DNA of 64,000 nt from Arenimonas fontis (GTDB lineage Bacteria > Pseudomonadota > Gammaproteobacteria > Xanthomonadales > Xanthomonadaceae): positions 248,001-312,000 of the forward strand of contig NZ_VUOD01000003.1 in assembly GCF_008386465.1 (NCBI RefSeq), read 5' to 3'. Of the stretch, positions 9,916-28,797 are shown one piece after another. Under the pieces are notes generated by a model. The model was given only the letters and a program-made list of their open reading frames with translations. It was not told the DNA's origin and made no database searches. A program made the translations under genes and the position numbers. The first letter of the stretch is position 1. Every line of letters begins with the position of its first letter.

Positions 9916-11046
9916 TTAGTTCCTGGCAGCCCTCGCCGACCACCACGTGTACAGCGAGGAGGCTATCCGGTAGGCGGTCCTGCCATCCCAGAGCGGTATG
10001 TCGGGCCGTGTCGCGCGCCTGTCACTCTCCGCAAGCACGGAATCGATCATCGCCCTGGCATCGTATCGGTTCACAAGCATATTCGTCCCCGATCGCACGG
10101 TGACCGGCCGTTCGGTGTTCTCCCGATAGGTCAGGCAGGGAACGCCGAGGTAACTGGTTTCCTCCTGTATACCACCGGAATCGGTGATGACCAGCGCCGC
10201 CGGCAGCGCCAGCAAGTTGATGAATTCGCGGTACCGCATGGCTGTAACGTCGCGGATGGCAGCATTCGCGGCGATGCGCTCCCTCAGACCGGTTCTCGCC
10301 AATGCCGCCTCGGTACGCGGATGCAGGGGGAATACGACCTCGAGTCTTTCCGCCAGATACTCCACCAGGCCGATCACCTCCAGCAGGCCGGCTTCGGTAT
10401 CGACATTCGAAGGCCGGTGGAAGGTAGCCACGGCGAACTTTCCGGCCGAGACCCCCAGCCTGGCGGCGATCTCCGCTTTCGCCCGTTCATCGAGCGCAGC
10501 CGCCAGCGAGTCGATCATGATGTTGCCGGCCAGGCAGACCGCATCGGCGTTCTTCGCCTCGCCGAAGACCAGGTTGTTGAAGGCATCTTCCGACGGCGCG
10601 AAGAACAGGTCGGAGATCGAATCGACCACCACCCGATTGATCTCCTCCGGCATGCTGCGATCGCCGCTGCGCAGCCCGGCCTCGATATGCACCAGCGGCA
10701 GCAGCGAGCGCTTGGCAGCCAGGGCCGCACCCAGGGTCACGTCGACGTCACCGAAGACGACGACCATGTCGGGCGTCTCTTCGGCCAGCAGCCTCGAGTA
10801 GGTCGATATGATCTCGCCCAGGCGCGCGCCGAAACCAGCGCGCTCCAGCGGCAGGTAGCGGATGATCGACTGGTCGACGCCGAGGTCCTCGATGATTTCG
10901 TCGCTCAGGCTCGGCGAGGTGTGCTGGCCGATGAACACGATCCGCGGCTCGCACCAGTCCTGCGACTGCAACACCCGCGCCAGCGGCGACAGTTTGACGA
11001 TGTTCGGTCGCGTGCCGACGACCAGGTCTATCATGCAGGTCTTCAC
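9916..11046 (-). CDS. wecB: UDP-N-acetylglucosamine 2-epimerase (non-hydrolysing)
   Basis: 376 residues. It interconverts UDP-GlcNAc and UDP-ManNAc in the cytoplasm, the first step to UDP-ManNAcA. Family blocks are present: VVGTRPNIVKLSPLARVL at the N-terminus, HIEAGLRSGD, MPEEINRVVVD (the glutamates expected in the active site), ATFHRPSNVD (catalytic histidine region), DSGGIQEE and TERPVTVRSGTN. A small divergence is VFGDVDVT where QGDTDST is usual. The start is either GTG 11046 or ATG 11034. The partner dehydrogenase is the C-terminal half of the fusion at 24462-27149 in the same locus. Confidence 0.94.
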   Translation of the reverse strand: MKTCMIDLVVGTRPNIVKLSPLARVLQSQDWCEPRIVFIGQHTSPSLSDEIIEDLGVDQSIIRYLPLERAGFGARLGEIISTYSRLLAEETPDMVVVFGDVDVTLGAALAAKRSLLPLVHIEAGLRSGDRSMPEEINRVVVDSISDLFFAPSEDAFNNLVFGEAKNADAVCLAGNIMIDSLAAALDERAKAEIAARLGVSAGKFAVATFHRPSNVDTEAGLLEVIGLVEYLAERLEVVFPLHPRTEAALARTGLRERIAANAAIRDVTAMRYREFINLLALPAALVITDSGGIQEETSYLGVPCLTYRENTERPVTVRSGTNMLVNRYDARAMIDSVLAESDRRATRPDIPLWDGRTAYRIASSLYTWWSARAARN

Positions 11047-11999: not shown

Positions 12000-12196
12000 T
12001 ACCACCCATGCTCAGGAGCCGGCCATGCCGGCAGGCGCTGCGGCGCGACGCCGGCATAACCAAACTTGGCTTCCAGCCATCGGGACACCCCCAGCCGGAT
12101 CCCCTACCCAGTCCTCGACTGAGGGCGCCATAATACCTGCCCACGTGGGCCGCATCCATGCATTTTTCCGGCCCAGACATCCGGAGATTCCCCCAG
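12000..12196. promoter_or_regulatory. divergent intergenic region between epimerase and sulfotransferase genes
   Basis: This 197-base gap must hold the promoters of the minus-strand block starting at 11999 and of the plus-strand sulfotransferase gene at 12197. A CATAAT sequence (12129-12134, plus strand) could be a -10 box, but no convincing -35 lies at the right distance. A GCCGGC-rich repeat is seen near 12023-12057. No operator is assigned. Confidence 0.35.
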
Positions 12197-12946
12197 ATGG
12201 CCATCCACGACCTCGGCGTCGTCGCCCGCCGCAAGCGGCCCGGTGATTTCGAGAACTGCACCAACATCTCGCTGCGAAATCGTTACGTCTACTTCGCCGT
12301 AGACAAGGTGGCCAACAGTTCGATCAAGAACGCCCTGTACACCATCGAGCTGGAGCCGGTGAAACGGCCGCCGCCCTCGCCCTTCGACAAGCGGCTTTCA
12401 CCCCTGCTCTCGCCGTTCCAGTTGCCGCCCGATCTGCTTGACGAGGTGCTCAACAGCGGCCGGTACTTCCGCTTCGCTTTCGTGCGCAATCCCTATTCGC
12501 GCACGCTGTCATGCTATCTCGACCGCATCCTGAACCCCACGGCCAAGCCCCGGGCGCACCTGCAGCGCATCCTGGCGCGCAAGGGCCGGCCGACCGAGGA
12601 CATCAGCTTCGAGACCTTTGTCCGCGCCATCTGCGAGCAACCCTCGGCGGAGCAGAACTCGCACTGGCGCGTGCAGACCGACGACATCCTCTGGGGCGAC
12701 ATGGAGTTCGATTTCATCGGCAAGTTCGAACGCCTCTGGGAAGACATGGCGGTGGTCAGTACCCGCATCTGGGGCGAGGTGCTTCCGCCCATGGCGGCCT
12801 CCGAGGTGAACAAGTCGCCGAAAGTCACCAATGCCGGGTCCAAGTTGCGTCAGTACTACACCCCGGAGCTGGCCGATCTGGTCTACGAGCGCTTCCGCAG
12901 CGACTTCGACACCTTCGGTTACGACCGTGAGCTGGACGCCGCCTAG
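12197..12946 (+). CDS. carbohydrate sulfotransferase (Sulfotransfer_2 type)
   Basis: 249 residues from ATG 12197, chosen for the GGAG ten bases upstream and because codons before it (from 12158) lack a ribosome site. It resembles the family of membrane or cytosolic carbohydrate sulfotransferases. The first PAPS-binding block is YFAVDKVANSSIKNAL (K and SS in the loop). The second is RFAFVRNPYSRTLSCYLDRI, matching the FVRxPxxRxxSxY signature almost exactly. It would transfer sulfate from PAPS to a sugar hydroxyl. It is the only plus-strand gene in the locus. Its TAG stop shares the bases CTAG with the stop codon of the convergent MBOAT gene. Confidence 0.88.
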   Translation: MAIHDLGVVARRKRPGDFENCTNISLRNRYVYFAVDKVANSSIKNALYTIELEPVKRPPPSPFDKRLSPLLSPFQLPPDLLDEVLNSGRYFRFAFVRNPYSRTLSCYLDRILNPTAKPRAHLQRILARKGRPTEDISFETFVRAICEQPSAEQNSHWRVQTDDILWGDMEFDFIGKFERLWEDMAVVSTRIWGEVLPPMAASEVNKSPKVTNAGSKLRQYYTPELADLVYERFRSDFDTFGYDRELDAA

Positions 12947-14364
12947 AACTGGAAGTAGATGAAGTTGTTCACCTCCATCGGCATAAGCATCACCAGCAGC
13001 GCCAGCACCGCCCCCAGGCACAGGCCGACCGCCCAGGCCGGCAACCGCAAGGGCGCCGCCTTCAGCCAGCGACGTTCCGATTGCATGCCCAGCGCCAGGG
13101 TGTCAAGCAACACGGGCAGAATCACTGCCAGGTAGGGGATGGCGGCCCGGGCCAACCCCTGGTCCGGGCGCAGGCCGGTGAAGGCCGCGAACACCTGCAG
13201 CGAGTCGCCGAAGCCCTGGGCCCGGAACGGGATCCAGGCCAGCAGCACGAACAGCTGGGTGAGCGCCCAACCGGCGGCGGCCCAGGCCACCGCCGCCACG
13301 GCGCCGCGACCGACTCCGTGCAGCAGGCCGGACATGCGCTTGTGCATCACCAGCGCGGCTCCGTGCAACCCGCCCCAGAGCACGAAGTTCCAGCTGGCGC
13401 CGTGCCAAAGGCCACCCAGCAGCATGGTCAACATCAGGTTGCGCTCGCGCTTCAGGTCCCCGTCGCGGTTGCCGCCCAGCGGGATGTACAGGTAGTCGCG
13501 CAGCCAGGTGGACAGCGAGATGTGCCAGCGTCGCCAGAAGTCGGTGATGCTGGCGGCGATGTAGGGGAAGTTGAAGTTCCGCGGCAGGTGGAAGCCCAGG
13601 GTCCTGGCCACGCCGATCGCCATCAGCGAATAGCCGCAGAAGTCGAAGTAGATCTGCGCATAGAAACCGACGGTGGCCATCACCAGGCTGTGGTTGTCGT
13701 GCCCCCGCACATCGGCGAACACGCCGTCCACGAAGGGCGACACGTTGTCCGAGAACACCGCCTTGTAGATGAAGCCAACCGCAAACAGCTTCAGTCCTAC
13801 CTGCAGGTCGCGCGCGGTCGGCGCCCGGGGCCGGGCCAGCTGCGGCAGGAAATCGGAGGCGCGGATGATCGGGCCGGCCATCATCTTCGGGAAGAACGAG
13901 ATGTACAGGGCCGTGTGCAGCAGCTTGCGGTCCGCGGCCAGGTCGCGCCGATACACGTCCACCACGTAGCAGATCGCCTCGAACACGAAGAAGCTGATGC
14001 CCACCGGCAGGATGATCGCCAGCGCCGGCCAGGACAGGTGCACGCCCACCGCCTCGGCCAGGGCGGCCAGGGACCCGGCCAGGAAGTCCAGGTACTTGAA
14101 CACCGACAGCACGCCCAGCAGCAGGACGATGGCCGCGGCCAGCACCAGCCGCGGCCGCCAGCGCGCCTCGATCAGCAGCACCGCTGCGTGGCAGATCGCA
14201 ATCACCAGCCACATCAGGCCGAGGAAGCGCCAGTCCCACCATGCGTAGAAAACCTGGCTGGCCAGCAGCAGCAGCCAGTTCTGCGCCTCCCGGCCGCGCA
14301 GCAGCCAGTAGGCACCGAACACCAGCAGGTAGAACAGCAGGAAGGCGCCGGAGGTGAAGATCAT
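12943..14364 (-). CDS. MBOAT-family O-acyltransferase (AlgI-like)
   Basis: 473 residues from ATG 14364, which overlaps the TGA of the upstream SGNH gene (ATGA). A polytopic inner-membrane protein with about ten hydrophobic segments. Family signatures include FVFEAICYVVDVYR, DFWRRWHISLSTWLRDYLYI-type sequence (FWRRWHISLSTWLRDYLYIP) and GGLWHGASWNFVLWG followed by GLHGA, which carries the conserved catalytic histidine. Relatives pass acetyl groups across the membrane for O-acetylation of alginate and other polysaccharides, working with an SGNH-fold periplasmic partner; that partner is encoded by the overlapping upstream gene. It ends with the stop codon shared with the plus-strand sulfotransferase gene. 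Confidence 0.92.
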   Translation of the reverse strand: MIFTSGAFLLFYLLVFGAYWLLRGREAQNWLLLLASQVFYAWWDWRFLGLMWLVIAICHAAVLLIEARWRPRLVLAAAIVLLLGVLSVFKYLDFLAGSLAALAEAVGVHLSWPALAIILPVGISFFVFEAICYVVDVYRRDLAADRKLLHTALYISFFPKMMAGPIIRASDFLPQLARPRAPTARDLQVGLKLFAVGFIYKAVFSDNVSPFVDGVFADVRGHDNHSLVMATVGFYAQIYFDFCGYSLMAIGVARTLGFHLPRNFNFPYIAASITDFWRRWHISLSTWLRDYLYIPLGGNRDGDLKRERNLMLTMLLGGLWHGASWNFVLWGGLHGAALVMHKRMSGLLHGVGRGAVAAVAWAAAGWALTQLFVLLAWIPFRAQGFGDSLQVFAAFTGLRPDQGLARAAIPYLAVILPVLLDTLALGMQSERRWLKAAPLRLPAWAVGLCLGAVLALLVMLMPMEVNNFIYFQF

Positions 14365-15509
14365 CGGCCGACCTCCCCGGCCAATGCCGCCGCCAGTCGT
14401 TTGGCGAACCAGGGCGCGAAACGGTCGGCGCCGGCCGGACGCATGTGGCGGGCGTCGTTCCAGTACTCGCGGCCGTCCAGGGCGTCGATCAGCGCCGGAT
14501 CTTCGTAATCCAGGCAGAAGTCCGCCGGCCATTTCGCGCAGAAAGCGGCGACGTGGTAGATGTCGTCGGCGTCGGCGCTCGCGACCGCGTAGAAGCCCGC
14601 CTGATCCACCAGGTCGCCGAGCAAGTCGCGAAAGCGGGCGATGCGCACCGGCCCGATCCAGTCCAGCTGGCGGTCCGCCGCCGCGAAACCGCGGCCGGTG
14701 GCCCGCCAGGCGTCGGCATGGCGCAAGGCGGCACGGACGCGGTCCATTCCCTGGAAACGATAGCCGCGCTTGGCGACGTCCAGTGGCATGTAGCCTGGCC
14801 TGATCCGGATCCCGTCCAGCGAGACGACACGACGGAAGCCACCCAGGTTGCTCAGGTTCACCGCCGCGTGCTCCAGCACCGCCACGGTCCTGGCTCCGTC
14901 CAGCCCGCCACCGATCGCCACCGCTCTCAGCGCCGCCAGGGCGTTGCCGAGCGTCATGTAGGCATAAGCCCGGTAGGTTCGCTCATTGCGGGTGAAGTTG
15001 TTCAGAGGATCCAGATCGTACCGGTTCTGCATCTCCATCAGCAGGACCACCTGCTTCCGGCGCAAGGTCTCGCGCTGCCGGTCGTCCAGCCGTTCGATGG
15101 CGATGGACAGCATCCAGTAGCGTTCGAAGTGATTGGAGCCGTCGAGGGAAAGCTGCACCGCGGCCGTGCCGATACCGGTGCTTTCGCTCATCCGGCTGGC
15201 CACCTGCCGGGCGTCCAGCCCGCGCGCCGAGTAGCTGCTGCCCTCGAACACCAGGATGCGCCCGATCTGCGGATCGGCGATGGCGGCGTGCAGTTCCCGC
15301 TCGACGCCCGCCACCAGGCGCAGGGCATTGGTGGAAGGGTAGTAACCGGCTTGCTGGCTAGCCCAAGGCACTGCCGCCGTCGCCAGGACCATTCCCGCGA
15401 CGAAGCCGGCCAGGACGGCGCGCGTTCTCCCGTTTTCGGTCGAGCGCAGGGCGCAGACGAACGCGAGCAGGATCAGACCGGCAAGGATGAACACACTGCT
15501 GGAGTCCAT
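14361..15509 (-). CDS. SGNH-like acetyltransferase partner of the MBOAT protein
   Basis: 382 residues. Two N-terminal hydrophobic segments (about 7-21 and 31-48) anchor it, leaving a periplasmic domain. Two features fit an SGNH/AlgJ-like acetylesterase fold: ILVFEGSSYSARG (serine of block I at about residue 91) and a C-terminal YWNDARHMRP in which D352 and H355 match the DxxH dyad. The four-base overlap with the MBOAT gene supports a joint role in O-acetylating the polysaccharide. The central part is divergent and I cannot place the other two SGNH blocks, so the catalytic assignment is inferred. Confidence 0.72.
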   Translation of the reverse strand: MDSSSVFILAGLILLAFVCALRSTENGRTRAVLAGFVAGMVLATAAVPWASQQAGYYPSTNALRLVAGVERELHAAIADPQIGRILVFEGSSYSARGLDARQVASRMSESTGIGTAAVQLSLDGSNHFERYWMLSIAIERLDDRQRETLRRKQVVLLMEMQNRYDLDPLNNFTRNERTYRAYAYMTLGNALAALRAVAIGGGLDGARTVAVLEHAAVNLSNLGGFRRVVSLDGIRIRPGYMPLDVAKRGYRFQGMDRVRAALRHADAWRATGRGFAAADRQLDWIGPVRIARFRDLLGDLVDQAGFYAVASADADDIYHVAAFCAKWPADFCLDYEDPALIDALDGREYWNDARHMRPAGADRFAPWFAKRLAAALAGEVGR

Positions 15510-15521
15510 TCGGGCGACGCT

Positions 15522-18101
15522 TCAATCCTGGGTCCAGAGAGAGGCGTAGGGCGCGAAGCGGGCCCGCAGGCCGTCGAGCAGCGCCTCCGGCAAGGCGTCG
15601 GTCGAGACCGGCGGCAGTCCGGGCGCGTGCGCCGCCCGCTGGGCGACGACCCGCCGCAGGCGGTCCGTATCCAGGGGCGCGCCGGCGATCTTGCAGATCG
15701 CCGCCACCGCCGCGGCCGGATCCCGGAGCACCTGCGCGGGCGTGAATCGCAGCGCGAAGCGCTGACGCAGCGCCCAGCGCAGGATGCGCTCGGTCCGCAG
15801 GGCCACACTTTCCAGGCGCGCCGTCAACGGTTCCGGCACCTCCGCGCTGCCCATCTCGCTCCGCGGCAGCTGGCGCAGGCAGTGCTCGACCGGATCGCCG
15901 CAGATCAGCGCCAGCACGGCCTGCGGCTCGATGCCGAGCGAAAGGTCCTCGCGGACCAGTGGCTCGACGCGCACTACGTTCGCCCGCAGCGGGTCCTGGC
16001 CTTCGCTGCCGGCGTAAAGCAGATGCACGGCATCCAGCAGGATGGCCCGGTCACGGGCCGGCAGCGTCAGCGCCTTGCGGACCAGTGGTCCAGGCACGCC
16101 GATCCAACTGGCGCCCACCATTCCGGCGGCGCGCGTCAGCAGTCCTTCCAGCCAGCTGGCGACCGCGCCGCCGGTACCGGTGAGGTAGACCGTCGGCCGC
16201 CGGCTGCGCTGGCGGAGCACGGCCAGCGCATGCAGTTCCTCGGCCAGCCGCGCGGGATCGCCATCGCGGCGGCGCAGGTGCAGGTCGCGGGCCGCTGTCA
16301 CCCGCTCCGGCGCCTTCCTGACATCTTCCGGCCACCACGCATCCGGGTTGCGGCAGTAGCTACGGAAAAGCTGCCGGCCGAGCTCCTCCGGATCGAGCCG
16401 CTCAGCGCCGCGGTGGTCGATCAGCCTAAGCCCGAGCCGCGCCCGCAGCGCCGGTCCGGGAAAACGGAAGGCCAGCAGCTGGGCGGGCTCCAGCTGGTTG
16501 GTCTCGCGCGAGGCCACCGCGCCGGCCTGGCCCGGCAAGCCGGGATCGAGCAGGCGGATGCCCTCGCAAGCGCCGTCCAACACCTCGATGCGCAACTCGC
16601 GACCGGCCGCCAGGTCGAGCAGGCGGGCCTGGCCTTCGCCAATCACGATCTCCTTGTCCGCTGGCACATGCCAGAGCGACAGGAAACCTTTCGCAGACTC
16701 CACCCCGGTCTCGCCTTCCGGTTCCAGACTGTCTTCCACCTCGAAGCGGCGCTGGGCCAGATCCAGCCTCAGCCGCCGCCGGGCACGGAAGCCAGGCCAG
16801 GAGGCCGACCACGCTTCCGCCAGGGCATGCGCCTCGCCCGACTCCAGCAACTTCAGTCCGCCCTCGGCATCCGAGGCCGGCCGCTTCCAGTCCGGATCGA
16901 AACCCTCCGGCACCGGCACGTTGTGCGCCCACTTCGAGCGCAGGTAACGACGTACCGGCTCGTGTTCGACGTAGTTGAACATGCCCGAATCGAGCAGCCA
17001 GTCGCCACCCCAGTACAGGCACAGTGACAGGTCGTCGTCGTGCCGGTGGTAGCGCGAGCGGAAGCCGCTGCGCAACACCAGATGGAAGGCCGACGCCGGC
17101 GGCTCGCCAGCCGACCAGTCGCTGCGCGCCACCAGATAGCCGCCGTCCTCGAAGGCGCGCAGCCAGCCCTCGGGCCTCTCGCCCTCGCGGCCGCCGCTGG
17201 TCACCCAGTCCAGGCGGCGGTGCGCCGGCGTGCCGGCCAGGCGGCGGAAGACGTTGCCGGCCGGGCGCTGCTCGGTGTCGCCGATCGCCGGCAACAGACC
17301 GTCGGGGCGCACGATCCAGGCCATGTACTCCAGCGCCCTGGGCAGGGTCCTCTCCAGGGCCGGGCCCAGCGGGCCGAGCTGTTCCGGCGTGAAGGCCGAT
17401 GCGATCTCGTCGAACAGGTTGCCGACGAACTGGTGGTAGGCCGGGCTGTTTTCCACGTGCACGCCGTCGGCGCCGAAGGCGAACTCCAGTTCACCGGCGA
17501 GCCGCGCCATCGCCGTTTCCAGCCAGCGACCGGCACCGGGCCGGCCGGCCAGGGCGAGGCCCAGCAGGCCCAGCACGCGCGATTGGTCTATGCCGTGGTT
17601 GGTGTGCCGGGTGTACATGCCTTCCTCGGCCAGCCGGTCGGCGTGCCGGGCCAGGAAGGCCTCCAACATGGCCTGCGCTTCCGGCATGCGCGCGTCCAGG
17701 CGCAGGTGGCAGAGCAGCCACAGCGCGTTCAGCGCGCGCATCGCCGTGGCGTGGTCGTGCCAGGCGAACTCGAAGCCGTCATCGCCGTCGGCGAAGCGTG
17801 CCGACCAGGACCGCACCGCCTCCAGCGCATGCGCCATCGCCCGAACGTCGGCGGACGCCGCATCGTAGGCGATCAGCCAGGGCATGAAGTTGAACGAGGC
17901 GATCTGCCATTGCCAGCTGCGATGTCCGAGCGGATCGGCAGTCCAGTCCCTGAACAGGTCCAGCGTTACCGGGGGAAAGCCACGAAACTGGTACAGGTTC
18001 TCCTGCACCAGCCGACGCCCGGCGCGGGCGGCAGAAGGATTGCTCCTGATGGCCAGGACGCGCTGGCGCAGCGCTTCCGGCAGTCCGGCGTTCCCGTCCA
18101 T
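15522..18101 (-). CDS. heparinase II/III-type lyase fused to a sulfotransferase-like domain
   Basis: 859 residues from ATG 18101 (GGAGG four bases upstream; a GTG at 18104 is an alternative). Residues about 1-620 look like a heparinase II/III family lyase: an alpha-helical toroid with TRHTNHGIDQSR (Asn-His near 166), SPAYHQFVGN (Tyr-His near 218), and the signature SRYHRHDDDLSLCLYWGG / WLLDSGMFNY near 350, followed by beta-sandwich sequence. Residues about 635-859 resemble a P-loop sulfotransferase: VYLTGTGGAVASWLEGLL, then ALICGDPVEHCLRQLPRSE in the position of the RDPxD--xS block, and FTPAQVLRDPAAAVAAICK with AGAPL, typical of the family C-terminus. It has no signal peptide, so a lyase acting in the cytoplasm is unusual. 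The gene overlaps the glycosyltransferase gene upstream by one base. Confidence 0.75.
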   Translation of the reverse strand: MDGNAGLPEALRQRVLAIRSNPSAARAGRRLVQENLYQFRGFPPVTLDLFRDWTADPLGHRSWQWQIASFNFMPWLIAYDAASADVRAMAHALEAVRSWSARFADGDDGFEFAWHDHATAMRALNALWLLCHLRLDARMPEAQAMLEAFLARHADRLAEEGMYTRHTNHGIDQSRVLGLLGLALAGRPGAGRWLETAMARLAGELEFAFGADGVHVENSPAYHQFVGNLFDEIASAFTPEQLGPLGPALERTLPRALEYMAWIVRPDGLLPAIGDTEQRPAGNVFRRLAGTPAHRRLDWVTSGGREGERPEGWLRAFEDGGYLVARSDWSAGEPPASAFHLVLRSGFRSRYHRHDDDLSLCLYWGGDWLLDSGMFNYVEHEPVRRYLRSKWAHNVPVPEGFDPDWKRPASDAEGGLKLLESGEAHALAEAWSASWPGFRARRRLRLDLAQRRFEVEDSLEPEGETGVESAKGFLSLWHVPADKEIVIGEGQARLLDLAAGRELRIEVLDGACEGIRLLDPGLPGQAGAVASRETNQLEPAQLLAFRFPGPALRARLGLRLIDHRGAERLDPEELGRQLFRSYCRNPDAWWPEDVRKAPERVTAARDLHLRRRDGDPARLAEELHALAVLRQRSRRPTVYLTGTGGAVASWLEGLLTRAAGMVGASWIGVPGPLVRKALTLPARDRAILLDAVHLLYAGSEGQDPLRANVVRVEPLVREDLSLGIEPQAVLALICGDPVEHCLRQLPRSEMGSAEVPEPLTARLESVALRTERILRWALRQRFALRFTPAQVLRDPAAAVAAICKIAGAPLDTDRLRRVVAQRAAHAPGLPPVSTDALPEALLDGLRARFAPYASLWTQD

Positions 18102-21100
18102 CACGCCTCCCCGGAACCGCCGGGCAGCAGCCCTTGTGCCACCAGCGAGCGGCGTACCGCCTCGAAGGTGAAGCGCTTCGCCACCTCGCGCACCCGTTGC
18201 CGCGCCTCGCGCCGCAGTGCCGGCTCGCGCGCCAGCCGGCGCAGCAGGGCCAGGGCCTCGGCCTCGCTGTCGGCGTACAGCGGGTAGGCCTCGCCGAAGA
18301 CCTCGCGGTTGACGGCGTTGCCGGCCAGGATCGGCGGCACGCCGCAGAGGGCGTACTCCAGCACCTTGGTGGACAGCTCGTGCGTGTGCGCCTCGAGGCT
18401 TGGATGGCGCCAGGCCCAGCCCACATCCATGCCGGCCAGTTCGCGCAGCAGCGCTTCCCGTTCGCTCGCGCCGTGCCAGTGCAGGTCGGGCAGCTCGCGC
18501 AGGGCCGTGCGCACCTCATCGCGGAAGGCCGGATCCTCGGGCGGGTTGTGGATCTTGTCGCCCCAGGCGTGCAGCTCCAGGGCCAGACCTTCTTCGCGCA
18601 GGCGGCGATGGGCGGCGAACAGTTCGCGGATGCCCCACAGGGGTGCGAACTTGCCGGCATAGGCCAGACGCAGCGGCCGATCGCCGCCGGCGGCAGCGTC
18701 CGCCGCGGGCGGCGCGGCAAGCAGCGTCGCCGCCAGCTCAGGAATCATCGGCGGCAGCAGGCGGGTCTTGCCCCGTGCCTCCGGCAACAGGCGTTCCAGG
18801 TAGTCGCGGAACTGCGGGGTCTGGCACAGCAGCACCGACGCGGCCGTCGCGATGTCGCGCAGGCGGGCGAGGAGGTCTCCGGACACGTCCTCGGCGCGCT
18901 GCGGAAGGTCGGTGATGTAGACCCAGAGGCGGCCGGCCAGCGACGGTCGCCGCGCGGCGCGATGGCAAAGTTCGAAGCCGCGCAGCACCACGGCGTCATG
19001 ACGCCAGCGGATGTCGTCGGCCTCGATCCTGTCCAGGGCCTCGTCCGGCGTCAGGGCCTGGTGTGCCTCGATGTCCGGTTCCGCCAGGCGCAGGCTTTCG
19101 ATCGACAGCAAGGGCGCGATCAGATGTGGCGAGCGCACGCGCGCCTTCAGGTACAGCGTGGCGTGCACGCCGGGCTGCCCGGCCAGCACCTGCGCCAGCG
19201 ATGCCGCCCAGACCGCCGAACCGTCGGTGACGTTCAGGTTGACGTCGCCGTAGAGGGCCAGGCGCCGGCGCACCGGCGTCGGCTCCGGAATCGGCGGCGG
19301 CAATGTCCCGCCGGCGATCAGCACCAGCTCCCTGGCGATAGTGGCCTCGTGACCGGACAGGCGGCGCGCCTGGGCGGCGGCGGCGGCCGACATCGCCAGG
19401 AAACGGTCCGGGTCGCGGTAAAGCGTCCGGATGCCCTCGGCCAGGCCATGTGCGTCCTCCGGGCCCGCCAGCCAGGCGCAGCCCTCGTCCACGAACTCGG
19501 GAATCGCCGCCACCCGGTTGGTCACCGGCACCAGACCCGAGGCCATGGCCTCGTCGCGGGAAACGCCCTGGCTGTCCATGCGCGAGGGCACCAGGAAGAT
19601 GCCGTAGTCGGCATGCAGTGCGGCGATCTCCTGCTGCGACAGGAAACGCTGCTCCAGGCGCACGTTCGGGAAGTCGCGCAGCGGCGCCACCGTCTGCTCG
19701 AACAGCGGGCCGTCGCCGATGAGGTGGAAGGACAGCTCGCCGAAGAAGGGTTCGCGCGAGAGCTCCAGGATGGCGGCGACGCCGAGGTCGTTGCCGTAGG
19801 CGGCGGAGGCGAAGGGCCGGATGGAAAGGATGCGCAGGCGGTGTTCCGCCGTTTTCGGCCGGTAGCGGAACAGCTCGCCGTCCACGAAGTTCGGGATCAC
19901 CGCCAGCTGCGCCGGCGGCACCTGCACGCCCAGGTCGCGCAGCGCCTCGTGCGCCAGGTGCCTGGACACGAAGACCAGGCGAAGGTTGGGATGCGGATGC
20001 GCGAGCATGTCCATCCACATTGCCCGCCGCCGTTCCCAGCCCTGCCGGGCCCGCTCCTGTTCCTGGGCGGTGGGGAAGTTGAAGCTGCGCCGGTACCAGG
20101 GCTGGATCTCGGCGCCATGCACCCAGACCACCACCCGGATGCGGTCCAGCAGCGGCTTCACCGCCTCCCACATCTGCGGATCCATGGCGTGCACCAGCAG
20201 GCAGCGGTAATCGTTGCCGGATACCAGCAGGTCCAGGTGTTCGGCCTGACCGGCCACCACGTCCACGCCCTGGAACTCGCTGAACTCCAGCGCCTGGTTG
20301 CTGAAGCGGAACACGTCCACGCGGGTGCCGGCGGCGCCGTAGGCGAGCACACGCCGGTGCACGAAGCCGTAGCGGTACAGGTTGTCGTAGCGCGGGTAGT
20401 CCTTGGTCAGCAGCAGGGCCTGGCCGCGCCCGGCTATCTGCTCCAGGGCCGGCGAGACCGCGCCGCGCACCAGGGCCAGCAGCTCGGTGTCGCCGGCGCC
20501 GATGACCCGCAGGCCCAGCTTGATCCACTCGGTGCCGGGCGGCAGCGGGATGGCCTGATTGGTGTCGGAAGAAACGATGGCATGCGACAGCCGCTCGCGG
20601 TTGGCATTCATGAACACCAAGGCCACGTTCACGTACAACCCGGCCGAGGTGCGCAGGTGGAAACGCGCGGCCCCGTCCTCCGCCAGCTCCTCCGGCCGGA
20701 ACTGCCGACAGGCATACACGTAACCGTGTTTGCCGTCGTCCAGGCGCGAACTGACCAGCACCCGGTCGCCGGAATGGCGGACATGCAGCCGGCCTTCGGC
20801 ATGGCTGGAGGGTGGGAAGAGCGCACGCAGGAAGGCCAGCTCGGCCTCGTCGCGGTCGGCACGGTCGCCTGCCGGCGCGTCGCCGGCGAAACGGGCCCCG
20901 CCGCGCTCCAGCAGTGCGTCCATCGCCAGCCCGGTGTCCAGGGGCAGGTCGTCCACGACGGCGGCGACCGCCGCGCCGGCGCCGTCCCGGCAATAGTTGA
21001 ACTCGTCGGTGGCGAGGATCTCCAGGTCGCCGACCGGGGCGTCGCCGTCCAGCAACTCGGCCAACACGCGCCCGGCCAGGGCCTCGCAGCGCACCAGCGC

Positions 21101-24100
21101 CTGTCTCAGCGGCGCTGCGGCGGCCGGCCGGTACTGGGCGCCGTCTTCGCCCAGCACCGGCAGCCCGGAAACGAGGCGGTAATGACTGCGCTTGGCCAGG
21201 GCGTCGGCCTTCGCGTACGCGGTGCCCAGGGCCAGGTCGGTGAGGTAGTTCGGCCCGTAGTGGTCCCTGCCGTCCAGCCTGGCCAGCCAGCATCCCGGCC
21301 AGGCGGCGGCAGGCGCCAGCGTGCGCGCCTGGGCGGCGCCGACCAGGCTCAGGTCGCGCCGCCCGGGCGGAGTCTCGGGCACGAAACCTTCGGCGGCGAC
21401 CAGCACCAGGCGCTTCTCCGGCCAGCGCTGGGCGTCGAAGACCCGCAGGGCGGCTTCCACCTCCGCCTGATCGGCGACGTGAGCCAGGGCCAGCACACGG
21501 GCCCGGTCGGCCTGCAGACGCTCGCCCAGGGCACGGCCCGCCAACCAGGCCAGCCGATGCGCGTAGGTATGCTCGGAAAGCACCTTGCGCAAGCCCGCCA
21601 GGCGGAACCGGCGCAGGCGTTGCTCGTCGGAAAGCAGATCGGCCAGCCGCTCGCGCAGCGGGCCGGCATCGCCGGCGGAGGGTACCAGCTCGCCGAGCAT
21701 GGTCCTGAGACCGCGCGAGTAGTTGCTGATGGTGAGGGTGTTGCAGGCCAGCAGTTCGAAAGCGCGCCGCGCGAACATGCTCTGCGACTGCTTGACCGTA
21801 TTGATGGTGATTGCGTACCGATAGCCCTTGTAGGCCCGGTCAATCTCCGAGAAGGGCAGCGAGCCCTGGATCATCGGCTGGTAGCGCTCCGGGAAGCTCA
21901 GTCCCGGATCGCCGGAACCGTGGTTGCGGTCGTAGATCTCCACCGGCCGGAAGGCCAGGGCGGCATCCACCAGCATGTCGAAATCGGCGCGCCGCTCCGG
22001 GTACTTGGCGTAGTAGGAGCCGGCAAAGCAGAAAGCATCCTTGCGCGGGTAGCGCTCGATCGGGTGGTGCACGCGCGGCTGCGCCGCGAAGGGCAGCAGG
22101 TGCACCCGGGAGTGGCCAAGGTCCTCCCGGTAGGCCTTGATCCTGTCCATGTCGGTGGTGAACACCACGTCGAACAGCGAGGCCGCGCGCAGGAAGAGGG
22201 CGTAATGGACCGGGTCCTCCTTGTTCCAGAAGGCGGTAGGGATGCCACGAGCGCGGCAGTAGGCCACCAGTTCGCGCAGTTCGTTGCTGCACTGGGGCAC
22301 CTTCTTCTCCCACTCGCCGCGATAGCCCTTCCAGGCCGACTCCACCAGCAGCAGGTGCGGCTGGCAGGCATCCATCTGCGCCTTCCAGGTATCAATGCCC
22401 AGCGGCGTGAGCTGGCACTCCGGCTCGAAGCAGGCCTGGGTGAACTCGTCCATCACCGCCGCCACCCGCAGCGCGCGCAACCCGTCGGAGAAGCCGCTGC
22501 GCGGGCCCGGCATCGCGGCCGGGGCGCCTGTGCCCTCGGTCGCCGACTGGTCCCGCAATATGCGATACACGACCGCCACTTCGTCAGCAACCCGGTCCCA
22601 ACCGCGTTCGGCAAGCAACTTGCGCCGTGCCGCTTCGCCCATGCGGCGGGCCAGGTCGGGCTGCGCCGCCAGATCCGCCAGACAGCGGGCCAGCGCATCC
22701 GGGTCGCCCGCCGCGTGAATCCGGCCAGTGCTGCCGTCCTCGACCAGGCGGCGCAGCGGGGCCACGTTGGACACCAACAGCGGCAGGCCCATGGCCATCG
22801 CTTCCAGCGGTTTGAGTGGCGTGACCAGCTCGCAGACCCTCACCGGCTTGCGCGGCAAGGCCACGCAGTCGCAGAGCGCCAGGTGCGCGCGCACCCGCGC
22901 CGGTTCGACCCGGCCGGCGAAATGCACGCGCGCCTCCAGCCCCAGCTCCCGCGCCAGCGCCTCGAGCTCTGCCTTCGACTCGCCGCCGCCGACCAGCAAC
23001 ACGTGCAACTGCGGAACCTCGTCGGCGACGATCGCCAGTGCGCGCAGCAGGTCGTCCAGACCTTCGTAACGGGTCAGGGAACCGGCGAAGCCGACCACGA
23101 AGGCCTGCTCCGGCAGGCCCAGCGAGCGCCTCATGTCCGGATCGGGCAGCGGGCGTTCATCGGGATACGCGGCGTTGGGCGCCAGCGAGATCCGCTCGGC
23201 CGGCACGCCACGCTGCCGCAGCTCGGCCGCGAGCTCCTCGTTGATGGCCAGCACGTGGTCGGCCTGGCGCGCCACCAGGGTCTCCAGATCGCGTTCGAGG
23301 GCGAAGCGCTGCTCCTGCTCGTAACCCGGCATGCGGCTGGCGGCGGTGTATTCCCAGAGCCCGCGCACTTCATAAACGAAGGGCAGGCCGCAGCGGCGGG
23401 CGGCGATCAGCGCCGGCAGTGCGTTCTCGTAGTTGGAGGCGGCGTGGACGACGGCGACGCGACGTTCACGCAGCACCTCCTCGATGGCGGCAGCGGCGCG
23501 GCTGATGTACTCGTCCGGCGGGCTGAGCTGGCGGCTGCCGGGCGCGCGCAGGTAATCAATGCCGTCCACGTTCACCGGGTCCAGCGGGCCGGGCCCGCGA
23601 TCCGGGCGGTCGGCCGGGTAGCCGGGCCGGGTCAGGCAGGCCACCTGCAGGCCCTTGCCGCGCAGCGCCTGCAGCAGCGCCTGCGTGCGCAGGGTATAGC
23701 CGCTGACGTGGTTGGGCAGAGCCGAGGCGGCGACGTAGAGCACGCCCTCGCGGTCACGCGCCGCCGCCGGTGCCCGCGGCGGCACCACCGGCAGGCGATG
23801 GCGCAACCTGACCAAGGCGCGCAGCTGGGCCGCCTTTTCCCGCTCCTCGTCGCTTAGCGGATGATCGGGCGGCAGGCGCTCCAGGGTCGCCAGCGCCTCG
23901 TCGAGCTCGCCGGCATCGAACCTGAGGAACGCCAGCCAGAGCGTCCGGTAGGGTCTGGGCTCGAGGGCATCGGCGATCTGGCCGTAGCGGCAGGCATCGC
24001 GCGGGCCGAGCGGGAACACCCGCTTGGCCAGTTCGGTATAGACGCGCGCCCGTTGCTCCACCGTCAGGTAGAGCGAGCTGACCTCGACGTCGGCGGCGAC

Positions 24101-24445
24101 GAAACCCTCGCGCGCGTAGGTCGCGCAGGCGGCGTCCGCCATCGCCTCCAGCCTTTCGTCCGGGATGTGGCCGGGGCCGGCACCGCGGCGGAAGCGGCGG
24201 GCCACGCCGAGCAGGCGCCTGGGCACCGCGAGCAGGCCGCGCAGGGAACGCAGCGCGTCCACCTGCAGGGCGCCCAGTTCCCGGACTGCGCTGTTCTCGT
24301 GCAGGCCGAGGCGGTAGGCGATGTCGGCCAGGGCACGGCGCATCCGTGCCAGGTCGGCTTCGTGCGCGGCATCGCGGGCGGCATCGCGGGTATCGGCCGC
24401 CCGGTCGGACCCTTGCGGCGGCGGTGCGGGGTTCTTCATCGCCAT
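18101..24445 (-). CDS. giant multidomain glycosyltransferase (three GT4 plus CgeB-like)
   Basis: 2114 residues from ATG 24445 (ATG 24439 also possible). Approximate layout: 1-230 charged helical N-terminus; 232-635 GT4 domain 1 (SGYTLRTQALLQALRGKG, VVGFAGSLTRYEGLDDLL, KPLEAMAMGLPLLVSN); 655-975 CgeB-like transferase (WNKEDPVHYALF, VFTTDMDRIKAYR, ARRAFELLACNTLTISNYSRG); 980-1140 fragment resembling the back half of a GT2 domain (YGPNYLTDLALGTAYAKADA); 1218-1332 beta-rich module (NANRERLSHAIVSS); 1340-1710 GT4 domain 2 (LLTKDYPRYDNLYRYGFVH, SRDEAMASGLVPVTN); 1727-2114 GT4 domain 3 (YGDVNLNVTDGSAVWAASLA, STKVLEYALCGVPPI). It would build several linkages of the polymer from one chain. The gene lies 16 bases after the GT4-dehydrogenase gene. 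Confidence 0.85.
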   Translation of the reverse strand: MAMKNPAPPPQGSDRAADTRDAARDAAHEADLARMRRALADIAYRLGLHENSAVRELGALQVDALRSLRGLLAVPRRLLGVARRFRRGAGPGHIPDERLEAMADAACATYAREGFVAADVEVSSLYLTVEQRARVYTELAKRVFPLGPRDACRYGQIADALEPRPYRTLWLAFLRFDAGELDEALATLERLPPDHPLSDEEREKAAQLRALVRLRHRLPVVPPRAPAAARDREGVLYVAASALPNHVSGYTLRTQALLQALRGKGLQVACLTRPGYPADRPDRGPGPLDPVNVDGIDYLRAPGSRQLSPPDEYISRAAAAIEEVLRERRVAVVHAASNYENALPALIAARRCGLPFVYEVRGLWEYTAASRMPGYEQEQRFALERDLETLVARQADHVLAINEELAAELRQRGVPAERISLAPNAAYPDERPLPDPDMRRSLGLPEQAFVVGFAGSLTRYEGLDDLLRALAIVADEVPQLHVLLVGGGESKAELEALARELGLEARVHFAGRVEPARVRAHLALCDCVALPRKPVRVCELVTPLKPLEAMAMGLPLLVSNVAPLRRLVEDGSTGRIHAAGDPDALARCLADLAAQPDLARRMGEAARRKLLAERGWDRVADEVAVVYRILRDQSATEGTGAPAAMPGPRSGFSDGLRALRVAAVMDEFTQACFEPECQLTPLGIDTWKAQMDACQPHLLLVESAWKGYRGEWEKKVPQCSNELRELVAYCRARGIPTAFWNKEDPVHYALFLRAASLFDVVFTTDMDRIKAYREDLGHSRVHLLPFAAQPRVHHPIERYPRKDAFCFAGSYYAKYPERRADFDMLVDAALAFRPVEIYDRNHGSGDPGLSFPERYQPMIQGSLPFSEIDRAYKGYRYAITINTVKQSQSMFARRAFELLACNTLTISNYSRGLRTMLGELVPSAGDAGPLRERLADLLSDEQRLRRFRLAGLRKVLSEHTYAHRLAWLAGRALGERLQADRARVLALAHVADQAEVEAALRVFDAQRWPEKRLVLVAAEGFVPETPPGRRDLSLVGAAQARTLAPAAAWPGCWLARLDGRDHYGPNYLTDLALGTAYAKADALAKRSHYRLVSGLPVLGEDGAQYRPAAAAPLRQALVRCEALAGRVLAELLDGDAPVGDLEILATDEFNYCRDGAGAAVAAVVDDLPLDTGLAMDALLERGGARFAGDAPAGDRADRDEAELAFLRALFPPSSHAEGRLHVRHSGDRVLVSSRLDDGKHGYVYACRQFRPEELAEDGAARFHLRTSAGLYVNVALVFMNANRERLSHAIVSSDTNQAIPLPPGTEWIKLGLRVIGAGDTELLALVRGAVSPALEQIAGRGQALLLTKDYPRYDNLYRYGFVHRRVLAYGAAGTRVDVFRFSNQALEFSEFQGVDVVAGQAEHLDLLVSGNDYRCLLVHAMDPQMWEAVKPLLDRIRVVVWVHGAEIQPWYRRSFNFPTAQEQERARQGWERRRAMWMDMLAHPHPNLRLVFVSRHLAHEALRDLGVQVPPAQLAVIPNFVDGELFRYRPKTAEHRLRILSIRPFASAAYGNDLGVAAILELSREPFFGELSFHLIGDGPLFEQTVAPLRDFPNVRLEQRFLSQQEIAALHADYGIFLVPSRMDSQGVSRDEAMASGLVPVTNRVAAIPEFVDEGCAWLAGPEDAHGLAEGIRTLYRDPDRFLAMSAAAAAQARRLSGHEATIARELVLIAGGTLPPPIPEPTPVRRRLALYGDVNLNVTDGSAVWAASLAQVLAGQPGVHATLYLKARVRSPHLIAPLLSIESLRLAEPDIEAHQALTPDEALDRIEADDIRWRHDAVVLRGFELCHRAARRPSLAGRLWVYITDLPQRAEDVSGDLLARLRDIATAASVLLCQTPQFRDYLERLLPEARGKTRLLPPMIPELAATLLAAPPAADAAAGGDRPLRLAYAGKFAPLWGIRELFAAHRRLREEGLALELHAWGDKIHNPPEDPAFRDEVRTALRELPDLHWHGASEREALLRELAGMDVGWAWRHPSLEAHTHELSTKVLEYALCGVPPILAGNAVNREVFGEAYPLYADSEAEALALLRRLAREPALRREARQRVREVAKRFTFEAVRRSLVAQGLLPGGSGEA

Positions 24446-24461: not shown

Positions 24462-27138
24462 TCACCGGCGCCACAGGCCGACGGTGTCCATCACCTGCTT
24501 GCCAGCGCCCGGCGCCAACCGCCTGAACGCCTTGTGGCCGACCAGCAACAGGACGATGTCCGCGGACTGCACCGCCTCCTCGGCCGGCACCAGCTGCAGA
24601 TCGAGCTCCCCCAGGCCGGCGTGCGGCAGCGCCGCCTCGAAGGGATCGGCGCAAAGCACGCGACCCGGGTAGCGCTCGCTGAGGGTGCGGGCGATCTGCA
24701 GGGCCGGGCTCTCGCGGAAGTCGTCCACGTCCGGCTTGTAGGTCAGACCCAGGCAGGCGATGCGGGCATCGGGCCGCCCGGCCAGCGCCTGCTCCACCTT
24801 GGCGATCACATGCAGCGGCTTGTGGTCGTTGACCTCGCGCGCCTGGCGGATCAGCCGGGCCTGCTCCGGCGCGCTGGCGACGATGAACCAGGGATCCACG
24901 GCGATGCAGTGGCCGCCCACGCCCGGCCCCGGGTTGAGGATGGACACGCGCGGATGCCGGTTGGCGAAGCCGATCACGTCCCAGGCGTCGATGCCGAGCC
25001 TGTCGCAGATCATGGACAGCTCGTTGGCGAAGGCGATGTTGACGTCGCGGTACGCGTTCTCGGTCAGCTTGACCATCTCCGCGGTGCGGTCGTCGGTCAG
25101 CAGGCACTCGCCCTTGACGAAGCGCTGGTAGAGGCCGGCGGCGCGCTTCGCGCACTCCGGCGTCATGCCGCCGATGATGCGGTCGTTGTCCACGAGCTCG
25201 CGCAGCATCTGCCCGGGGATGATGCGCTCGGGACAATAGGCCAGGTGGACATCGGGACCACGATCGCCGCCCGGGAACGCCAGGTCGGGACGAAGCTCGG
25301 CCATCACTCGCGCCAGCATGCCGGTGGTGCCCACCGGCGAGGTGGATTCGAGAATGACCAGGTCACCCTTCTTCAGCACCGGCGCCAGCGAGCGGCCGGC
25401 GGCCTCGACGTAACTGACGTCGGGCGCGTGATTTTCGTCGTGCCCGACCGGCGTCGGCACCGCGATGATGAAGGCGTCGGCAGGCTGGGGATCCAGGTGG
25501 GCGCTGAGCCGGCCCTCCTTCACCCCGCGCTCGACCAGCGCGTCCAGATCGCCCTCCTCGATGTGCGCGCGGCCCTGATTGACGCTGTCCACGGCCCGCT
25601 GGCTGATGTCCACGCCGTATACCCGCAGACCGCTGGCGGCGAACATGGCGGCGGTGGGCAGGCCGATGTAGCCCAGGCCGATCACTGCCAGGCTGGCGAT
25701 CTCCGATCCGGAGGGCGGGGCGTCGCGTCGCATGCTCATTCTCTTGTCGTTCCTCGGTGCGGTCGATGGGGGAGGCGTACGTTCCGATCCCGCCTCCGGC
25801 CGGTGCCGGGCGCGGATTATCGCATCCAGTCGCGCGGCGATGGCCGGCCAGGCATGGCCGGCGGCCGCGTCGGGAGTCGGCACGAACGGAACAGTGCCGC
25901 CGGCCTGCTTGAGGTCCCGCCAGGCGCGCAGGACGCGGGCGATGTCCCTGGCATCGTTGCGGCAGGCAACGCCATGCCCGGTACCGGCCAGCAAGGCGGC
26001 CGCGGCGTCGGCCGGATCGGCCGGATCGGGGCACAGATGCAGGATCGGCTTGCGCGCGCCCAGGTACTCGTACAGCTTGCCCGGCACCTGGCAGGGATCG
26101 TCGTTGGCGATGTTAACCAGTACGTCCACAGCCCGCTGCGCCTTGAGCGCCCGCAGGTGCGGCATGAAGCCCAGCAGGCGGATCGCGCCCGGCGAACGCC
26201 GAGCGACCTCGGCGATGTCGTCCGGCACCTTCACCGAGGCGATGTTCAGGCGCGTGCCCGGCGTCGCCAGCACCGCCTCCATCAGAGCGTCGTGCCGGCG
26301 GAACCCGTAGAAGCTGCCGGTGTAGAGCAACTCCAGCCGGCCGGTATCGAACCTCGGGTCCTGCGGGCCGTCCGGCGGCAGCGCCGGGGCCGGGTCGTAT
26401 CCCTGGGTGAGCACCGCGCAGCGGTCGGCCGGCAGGCCGTGGCGCCTTGCCAGCAGCGCCGCCGCCCGATCGGTGGTGACCAGCACGCATTCGGCGCGCG
26501 CGCAGACCTCGCGTTCCAGCGCCTCGGCGCGGCGGTGCCAGCGTCGTGGCGTGTACGGCGCCAGCACCGGATCACCCAAATCGGCGACCCAGCGCACTCC
26601 CCGGCGGGCAGCCATCAGGCCGAGCTCCAGGGTCGTGGCCGGCTCGTGCGAGCTGATCACCACGTCGGGCCGGATCTCATCGAGCAGGGCCTGCATGCGC
26701 CGCTTCGCCCAAGGCTTCCATTCGCCGCGCAGGTCGGGGAACAGCAGCCATTCCATCAGCCGCTGCGCGCGCAAGAACATCCGGCCCTTCCAGTTCAGGC
26801 CGGCATGCCAGAGCCTGCCCTTCCAGTTGAGTTCGACCTCGGCCGCAACCGCAGCGCCACCCTGCCCCTGCGGTTCCGCCGGCGGGCCGGCGCTGCGCCG
26901 TCGCCTGCGCGCGCGCGCCGCCAGAAAGCCCATCAGCGGACCGGCAAAACAGCGGTGCACGGTCAGTCCGGGTGGAATGGCCGGCAAGCCCAGACCGTCG
27001 GCGGGATGGTCGGGGGCCAGCACGTGCACGTCGTGGCCCAGCGCCACCAGTTCGCGGGTCAGATAGGACCAGCGCAGCGATTGCGGGGACGGGCTGGGCG
27101 GAAATTCGTAAGCGACCACCAGGAGGCGCAGCGGCTTC

Positions 27139-27149
<11 letters not shown>
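24462..27149 (-). CDS. GT4 glycosyltransferase fused to UDP-ManNAc dehydrogenase (WecC)
   Basis: 895 residues in one uninterrupted frame from ATG 27149 (AAGGGGG upstream; it overlaps the wzt-like gene by 11 bases). Residues about 1-455 are a GT4-type glycosyltransferase (VVAYEFPPSPSPQSLRW, VISSHEPATTLELGLM, LLYTGSFYGFRRHDALM, GKLYEYLGARKPIL). After a proline/arginine-rich linker, residues about 471-895 are a nucleotide-sugar dehydrogenase: AVIGLGYIGLPTAAMFA, VPTPVGHDENHAPD, ESTSPVGTT, TENAYRDVNIAFANEL and GPGVGGHCIAVDPWF with catalytic C748, matching WecC, which makes UDP-ManNAcA. An internal ATG at 25739 could allow separate production of the dehydrogenase, but no stop codon separates the halves. 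Confidence 0.88.
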
Positions 27150-27966
<817 letters not shown>

Positions 27967-27975
27967 CTCCCGCCC

Positions 27976-28797
27976 TCAGACCCACAGTGGCACATATCGG
28001 GCATAACGCCGATACAGCAGGATGGTGAGCGCCCAACCGGCCGCCGCCAGCAGGCAGACCACCAGAATGGAAGCCGTCTCCGGATGGCCGCCAAGCAGGG
28101 GCGCGCGCACTACTTCCAGCAGATGGAATGCCGGATTGAAACGCACCAGGCTGCCGCGCAGCGTGTCCGGAGGAAACCGGTCCACCTGCCAGAGTATCGG
28201 CGTCAGCAGGAAGCCCAGCATCAGCACGGCGCCGATCAGTTCCTGGGTATCGCGGAAGCGGGCTCCGATCAGGGCGATGCAAACGGCGATCCAGCCCAGG
28301 TTGAGCAGCAACAGCGGAAAGCTCAGCAGCAGGGTCCAGAGGTGCCCGAGATGGGTTTCGGGCGACCACATCAGCACCGCCACCACCACTGCGCCGCCGA
28401 AAAACAGGTGAAAGAACGCCTTGGAGAACGACACCAAGATGAAATCGGTCAGCCGGATCCGGCCTTCCATGATGTTGGCCTTGTGCGACGGCAGGGCACC
28501 GGCGACGTCGGTGACGACCTGGATCATGAACCGCCAGGTCACGTAGCCCACCGCCAGGTAGGGCAGGTAGCGCTCCAGCGGATAGCTCATCAGGTGCGAA
28601 TAGACATTGCCCAACACCAGCACGAACAGTGCCACCGGCAGCGCCAGCCAGAGCAGGCCGAGGCTGGTGCGCCGGTACTTGGTGGTGATCTCCAGCCAGC
28701 TGGAATAGGCCCAGTACTCCGGCCGGCGCAGGCTCTGCCACAGGTGGGCCAGCAGCGCCGGTCCCTGGTCGGAACGATAGGTGCCGCCCGCGTTCAT
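27976..28797 (-). CDS. wzm: polysaccharide ABC exporter, permease (Wzm/KpsM-like)
   Basis: 273 residues from ATG 28797, overlapping the upstream cystathionine gamma-lyase stop as ATGA. ABC-2 type permease with about six membrane helices: LGLLWLALPVALFVLVLGNVY-type first helix, YLAVGYVTWRFM, FFGGAVVVAVLMW, LLLSFPLLLLNLGWIAVCIAL and a final LVVCLLAAAGWALTILLYRR. The cytoplasmic start (RRPEYWAYSSWLEITTKYRR) and the NPAFHLLEVVRAPLLGG motif are typical of O-antigen exporters. It is the first gene of the polysaccharide locus proper; the gene order metB-wzm-wzt is as in Xanthomonas LPS loci. Confidence 0.93.
   Translation of the reverse strand: MNAGGTYRSDQGPALLAHLWQSLRRPEYWAYSSWLEITTKYRRTSLGLLWLALPVALFVLVLGNVYSHLMSYPLERYLPYLAVGYVTWRFMIQVVTDVAGALPSHKANIMEGRIRLTDFILVSFSKAFFHLFFGGAVVVAVLMWSPETHLGHLWTLLLSFPLLLLNLGWIAVCIALIGARFRDTQELIGAVLMLGFLLTPILWQVDRFPPDTLRGSLVRFNPAFHLLEVVRAPLLGGHPETASILVVCLLAAAGWALTILLYRRYARYVPLWV

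Follow-up and report, generated by a model that had tools for sequence, protein, structure and literature searches.

A heparinase-fold protein with a sulfotransferase-like tail in a polysaccharide gene cluster of Arenimonas fontis

What does a heparinase-type protein do when it carries no export signal, lies among polysaccharide synthesis genes and ends in a sulfotransferase-like tail? This question is raised by a gene in a 64,000-nucleotide stretch of the Arenimonas fontis genome (contig NZ_VUOD01000003.1, positions 248,001 to 312,000; hereafter the window), which an earlier reading of the letters alone, here called the original prediction, had described as a heparinase II/III-type lyase fused to a sulfotransferase-like domain. 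The gene is a heparinase-sulfotransferase-like fusion (Table 1), in which the heparinase half runs into a tail of ~290 residues uninterrupted by a stop codon. A GTG start gives 860 amino acids and the next codon, an ATG at 18101, gives 859; at its start the gene shares 4 bases with the stop region of the multi-glycosyltransferase gene that precedes it. The protein passes the curated cut-offs of both heparinase II/III superfamily domains (PF16889/PF07940), with 47.6 bits for Hepar_II_III_N (cut-off 22) and 60.7 bits for Hepar_II_III_C (cut-off 24), and it is the sole PF07940 protein encoded in its genome. As predicted, a single frame encodes a heparinase-like N-terminal part with motifs of the NH, YH and RYHRHDDDLS type, which we located at residues 169/170 (NH), 223/224 (YH) and 352-358 (YHRHDDD). 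We propose that the protein probably works in the cytosol on uronates of the assembled polymer, before Wzm/Wzt export, as an epimerase or a lyase, and that its tail is a pseudo-sulfotransferase module.

Hydropathy confirmed that the chain has no signal peptide and detected no membrane stretch (Kyte-Doolittle means over 19 residues peak at residue 721 with 1.23), and an exported degradative enzyme was dropped as an explanation on this ground. The missing signal peptide had been taken as an anomaly. It proved to be ordinary: after five of 84 heparinase frames with matched stretches shorter than 400 amino acids were excluded, 60 of the 79 remaining rows had no hydrophobic N-terminal stretch by a crude hydropathy test, and unexported proteins of the family are thus often carried by genomes of the class. 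An assembly error as the origin of the fusion was also dropped, because the fusion frame is likewise unbroken in a congener (genome G003), whose protein is 62% identical to the window protein over residues 44-860 and 50% identical in the tail. In G003, no stop interrupts the frame between the counterpart of residue 44 and its end, and the first 44 residues are encoded in a different frame; at this shift (G003:C1:1192511-1192621) a sequencing error and a real break are indistinguishable, and the same is true of the G003 multi-glycosyltransferase (L045 11150-17485), which is spread over more than one frame.

The residues expected of a catalytic heparinase fold look intact in the window protein (Asn169, His170, Tyr223, His353 and Tyr378). 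Across the 79 aligned rows, its own included, Asn169 is conserved in 73, His170 in 71, Tyr223 in 72, His353 in 77, His355 in 78, Asp372 in 64, Tyr378 in 64 and His394 in 75. When a three-row profile was compared with the PDB, PL12 heparinase III came first (4mmh, E 1.6e-24; 5jmd; 4fnv), followed by alginate lyase 3a0o and then by the 8r70 group. A full-length AlphaFold2 model built with two Reyranella rows placed 273 of 860 residues at a predicted local distance difference test (pLDDT) score of at least 70, with ten-residue means from 32 to 88 across residues 121-570, and its heparinase half was usable. Foldseek with this model returned the same top matches (4mmh at E 8e-20) and ranked human dermatan sulfate epimerase 1 (DS-epi1; 6hzn) tenth at E 1.7e-12. 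A phmmer alignment to 4mmh pairs Asn169, Tyr223 and His353 with residues 216, 270 and 400 of the chain; with a single inferred offset of 24, these would be Asn240, Tyr294 and His424, which PMC12088678 gives for heparinase III. The window protein has the fold and the Asn/Tyr/His catalytic set in common with these PL12 enzymes; unlike them, it has no signal peptide, carries an extra tail, lies in a biosynthetic cluster and scores far below the cut-offs of the HepC NCBIfam equivalogs for PL12 heparinase III (28.4 and 27.8 bits, where 600 and 700 are required). The PL12 heparinase III enzymes are exported degradative lyases.

According to PMC11848413, several of these families of lyases have in common a Tyr-His dyad with a second Tyr above it, and DS-epi1 has the same fold and the same Tyr. 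Since lyases and epimerases of the heparinase fold share these residues, sequence cannot pick the reaction, which counts against any firm assignment. It is possible, if unlikely, that the protein is instead a cytosolic lyase for chain-length control or for clearing unexported polymer, its tail serving only as a binding module; as this is the lyase branch of our preferred reading, the probabilities of the two overlap. The closest characterised relatives with solved structures are lyases, and both Tyr and His are conserved, as such an enzyme would have them. However, a cytosolic lyase would be expected to cut the chain during its building, and DS-epi1 epimerises with the equivalent Tyr.

The sulfotransferase-like character of the tail held up as remote homology and not as a recognisable family domain: a search of residues 619-860 gave no Pfam match even at E 10, whether to PF00685 and PF13469, the two families proposed in the original prediction, or to PF03567. 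The relationship is seen through a stand-alone 463-amino-acid protein of G003 (L046 11163-12554, minus strand) that matches Sulfotransfer_3 and Sulfotransfer_1 (E 1e-9 and 5e-7, respectively). By BLAST, this protein matches the same region in both tails, at E 2e-8 in the window and E 4e-10 in G003. Smith-Waterman scores of the two tails against it were 108 and 119, with shuffle means of about 38, and the core without the linker scored 79 and 80; none of 500 shuffles scored as high in either comparison. When it was searched back against the class, 19 of 274 genomes matched, and its single match in the window's own genome was the tail (E 4e-6). Like the tail, with whose linker and first half of the core it aligns, the stand-alone protein follows a heparinase; unlike the tail, it is encoded by a separate gene and retains an RDPxDxxxS-type 3' motif. 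The heparinase gene in question (L046 11163-14078) is a second and distant one in G003, and the order of the two genes is that of the fusion.

Profile comparisons also bear on descent. With the G003 protein left out, hhalign scored the tail at 23.3 against 32 sulfotransferase rows, with the GDP residues and the C-terminal part in register, and none of 200 column shuffles reached this score (mean 14.5, maximum 21.8); L064 had been removed from the rows as no sulfotransferase. A profile of both tails and the G003 protein matched 13 PDB sequences to E 5, of which 11 are named sulfotransferases (best E 5e-4), one is a polyketide synthase entry and one is unrelated. In 398 genomes of the phylum, the same profile found 11 places besides its own, all 11 recognised by the sulfotransferase hidden Markov model (HMM). 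The tail reads as a remote homologue of sulfotransferases that depend on 3'-phosphoadenosine 5'-phosphosulfate (PAPS), reached by way of the G003 stand-alone protein.

Several results weigh against this descent. The linker alone was not significant against the G003 sulfotransferase, with 22 and 7 of 500 shuffles scoring as high. The hhalign test without the G003 protein is weak by itself, because the tail read in reverse still reached 19.8 (forward 23.3) and the probability was 2.5%; with that protein in the profile, the alignment was in register across both motifs at a probability of only 19%. The sulfotransferase HMM missed the window tail and gave the G003 tail 1.4 bits, below seven of 1000 shuffles. 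A profile of the tails only found no sulfotransferase in the PDB and one unrelated match, so the G003 row may be what carries the profile matches in the PDB and the phylum. Structure prediction, which had been proposed as a check on the C-terminal domain, returned models with no usable fold: pLDDT was 36 for the tail modelled from its single sequence, and below 50 at every residue from 566 to 860 in the full-length run. Such models, together with the empty Pfam search and the weak or negative profile results, are what would be seen if the tail were an unrelated helical domain with a fortuitous resemblance to sulfotransferases. We consider this improbable in view of the match of both tails to one sulfotransferase in the same region, the shuffle tests, which the core passed by itself, and the in-register alignment of the profile that lacked the G003 protein.

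Descent from a sulfotransferase does not mean that the tail still transfers sulfate. The PAPS motifs described in PMC11625862 comprise a 5'-loop Lys or Arg and the RxxxDxxxS of PF00685. Of 33 sulfotransferase rows, 29 were scorable (L072-L075, badly cut or aligned, were excluded here and are still among the 32 hhalign rows); the 3'-motif Arg and the loop Gly are present in all 29 and the 5'-loop Arg in 27, with the G003 stand-alone protein and L058 as exceptions. In both tails, the 3'-motif Arg is replaced by Gly. Their 5' loops read GGAVAS and GGAAAA, where most aligned sulfotransferases have PRSGT, and the 5'-phosphosulfate-binding Lys or Arg and the loop Gly are gone from each; the P-loop noted in the original prediction is not a functional one. 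The position of the 3'-phosphate-binding Ser is Arg in the window and Ser in G003, and RxxxDxxxS is lacking in both.

Selection was compared by the Nei-Gojobori ratio of nonsynonymous to synonymous substitution rates (dN/dS) for a single species pair, the window and G003, with no significance test. The heparinase parts had ratios of 0.23 and 0.22 and the tail core one of 0.57; the separate PF03567 sulfotransferase of the cluster gave 0.19, and the values for four further genes, two of which were only partly compared, were 0.28, 0.30, 0.19 and 0.25. The tail core is thus constrained, though more loosely than the genes around it, which is what a non-catalytic domain would show. The lost 3' motif gave a dN/dS above 1 over just 18 codons, too few to use. 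On the other side, the usual 5'-loop Arg is missing from the G003 sulfotransferase too, and the linker has a dN/dS of 0.20, with dS saturated at 2.5. The lost-loop stretch (residues 635-665; dN/dS 0.59 over 31 codons) is not free of constraint, as it is 68% identical between the species.

The original prediction had offered that the protein may edit and sulfate the same polymer. Because both PAPS motifs are lost in the two species found to carry the tail, the core is less constrained and another sulfotransferase, of family PF03567, is encoded 2.6 kb away on the opposite strand, the tail is unlikely to sulfate the polymer. A bifunctional enzyme, whose heparinase half modifies the polymer while its tail actively transfers sulfate and binds PAPS in an unusual manner, would fit the descent of the tail, the sulfation-competent look of the cluster, the conservation of the 5'-loop stretch and the statement in PMC11625862 that consensus motifs may be missing from bacterial sulfotransferases. 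The loss in both species of residues that every scorable row keeps, the relaxed core and the nearby PF03567 gene make it decidedly improbable.

The other possibility raised in the original prediction, a role other than lysis, for example epimerisation or binding while the polymer is made, is favoured by the intact residues, the lack of an export signal, the overlap with a multi-glycosyltransferase gene in a Wzm/Wzt cluster and the domain order of a human enzyme, dermatan sulfate epimerase 2 (DS-epi2, or DSEL). In the mechanism that we prefer, the heparinase half would take the C5 proton from uronates of the completed polymer while this is still in the cytosol. The reaction would most likely be C5-epimerisation, as in dermatan sulfate epimerase, and otherwise chain cutting by a lyase. 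The tail would no longer transfer sulfate; it would bind the substrate or act in docking, perhaps in connection with the separate PF03567 sulfotransferase, and the modified chain would then be exported through the Wzm/Wzt transporter. As a binding module, the tail would be a pseudo-sulfotransferase.

DS-epi2, a uronate C5-epimerase, joins a heparinase-fold epimerase half to a C-terminal sulfotransferase-type domain, as outlined in portions of PMC8006597 and PMC3717172. It differs in being a Golgi membrane protein with a tail recognised as PF00685 and an extra domain between the two parts, and in acting on chondroitin/dermatan. The likeness is drawn from the described domain order and not from sequences; the parallel lies in the architecture and does not extend to a claim that the two fusions share an origin. 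A fuller version, which we hold only tentatively and regard as doubtful, makes the protein a bacterial counterpart of DS-epi2: a cytosolic polymer-level C5-epimerase, perhaps converting N-acetylmannosaminuronic acid (ManNAcA) to N-acetylgulosaminuronic acid, whose pseudo-sulfotransferase would read sulfation or dock the true sulfotransferase and so link epimerisation to sulfation before export. The fusion provides a testable parallel to the animal dermatan sulfate epimerase.

The fusion is rare in the sample examined. The survey of genomes that had been suggested yielded a second instance, in G003, and none further among the 84 distinct heparinase frames, of which the tail HMM recognised just these two; the general sulfotransferase HMM gave one weak match to the 84 (E 0.019; one gene, found in two loci). 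These frames come from the fetched loci and represent part of the family, as PF07940 is present in 76 of 369 class genomes. At E 0.001, the fusion protein matched in three of 41 genomes (its own and 40 relatives), and the whole tail was covered only in its own and G003. With the tail as query, seven of 27 genomes of the genus matched at E 10 or better, strongly in its own and G003 and weakly in the five others. The full protein matched in 27 of 369 genomes of the class and in 5 of 398 of the phylum, its own included in both; these searches scored at most two candidates per genome, so absences in them are lower bounds, and apart from its own all matches end at or before residue 536. Among plasmids, tblastn found seven records matching within residues 18-508, and the G003 stand-alone sulfotransferase had no match. 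Among the literature entries listed, none pointed to a bacterial heparinase-sulfotransferase fusion or to an unexported heparinase in polymer synthesis, which does not prove absence.

The surroundings of the gene (Table 1) are those of surface-polysaccharide synthesis, and an NAD-dependent epimerase gene also lies on the minus strand of the cluster alongside the MBOAT and WecB genes. The order of multi-glycosyltransferase frames, fusion gene, 382-amino-acid protein, MBOAT and sulfotransferase is kept in G003. The PF03567 protein retains a loop Lys (DKVANSS) and, in NPYSRTLS, the PxxRxxS motif named in PMC11625862; it is the likelier candidate for the working sulfotransferase of the cluster. 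The dehydrogenase part of the two-domain frame is closest among solved structures to Cap5O (E 9e-104, against 5e-46 for the best UDP-glucose dehydrogenase entry), which we take to be a UDP-N-acetylmannosamine dehydrogenase. Together with WecB, it suggests ManNAcA as the acidic sugar, with the caveat that further dehydrogenase genes are located elsewhere in the genome. The 382-amino-acid protein has GSS and NDxxH motifs and is a candidate SGNH-type partner of the MBOAT protein.

At 7-11 kb to the left of the window lie genes for CysNC (adenosine 5'-phosphosulfate kinase), a CysD-type PF01507 protein and a CitMHS/sulfate-symporter-type permease. Genes for PAPS and sulfotransferases in such a cluster are given as a hallmark of sulfated polysaccharide synthesis in part of PMC11641403, and a similar cluster is reported in PMC11766843; the portions of these two sources that describe the clusters name no heparinase. 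The organism probably makes a sulfated surface polysaccharide, and the fusion together with the separate sulfotransferase points to the making, not the degrading, of acidic polymers. Two points here count against the preferred reading. A glycosyltransferase was visible in only 26 of 80 sampled heparinase loci, mostly short stretches with a median of 4.1 kb. CysNC and CysD are also used in ordinary cysteine synthesis.

Table 1. Features of the fusion gene and its cluster, with positions in the window
Feature	Position	Strand	Basis
Fusion gene, 860 aa: heparinase-fold half and sulfotransferase-derived tail	15522..18104	-	Frame, Pfam, G003 homologue
Alpha/alpha toroid half, Hepar_II_III_N, residues 37-283; Asn169, His170, Tyr223	17256..17996	-	Pfam E 1.9e-12
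Beta-sandwich half, Hepar_II_III_C, residues 315-511; His353, His355, Asp372, Tyr378, His394	16572..17162	-	Pfam E 2e-16
Tail, residues 566-860: ~70-residue linker and sulfotransferase-derived core (635-860)	15525..16409	-	Homology to G003 sulfotransferase
Lost 5'-phosphosulfate loop site, residues 643-650 (GTGGAVAS)	16155..16178	-	Alignment to 29 rows
Lost 3'-phosphate motif site, residues 735-739 (CGDPV for xRDPx)	15888..15902	-	Alignment to 29 rows
Multi-domain glycosyltransferase, 2114 aa, directly upstream of fusion gene	18101..24445	-	Pfam; 4-base overlap
Glycosyltransferase fused to nucleotide-sugar dehydrogenase, single frame; nearest solved relative Cap5O	24462..27209	-	Pfam, PDB comparison
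Wzt-type ATPase, 27139-27966, with Wzm-type permease in frame 27976-29523 (residue 259 onwards matched)	27139..29523	-	
382-aa protein downstream of fusion gene; no Pfam match; conserved in G003	14361..15509	-	
MBOAT O-acyltransferase	12943..14532	-	Pfam E 5.6e-32
Separate PF03567 sulfotransferase	12158..12946	+	Pfam E 6.2e-23
UDP-N-acetylglucosamine 2-epimerase, WecB type	9916..11046	-	Pfam E 1.7e-76

In the tree of the 79 rows, the window protein clusters with that of G003 and two Reyranella proteins (support 100/98). A heparinase-family protein of Reyranella soli (L006 5986-7650) is 38% identical to it over residues 12-546 and is likewise encoded directly after a multi-glycosyltransferase gene; it differs in having 554 amino acids and no tail. 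This tail-less relative adjoins a second heparinase protein of the same species (L006 7788-10841), which has weak N-terminal BNR/Asp-box matches. Frames of the Sulfotransfer_3 type occur near the heparinase gene in 4 of 80 sampled loci, and L118, L135 and L139 are the three further loci in which one lies close to it. Finally, a 1014-amino-acid frame in L134 (G060:C260) encodes an unexported heparinase with a C-terminal extension that resembles, by eye, an S-adenosylmethionine-dependent methyltransferase; if it is one, a different tailoring enzyme has been fused to the same fold.

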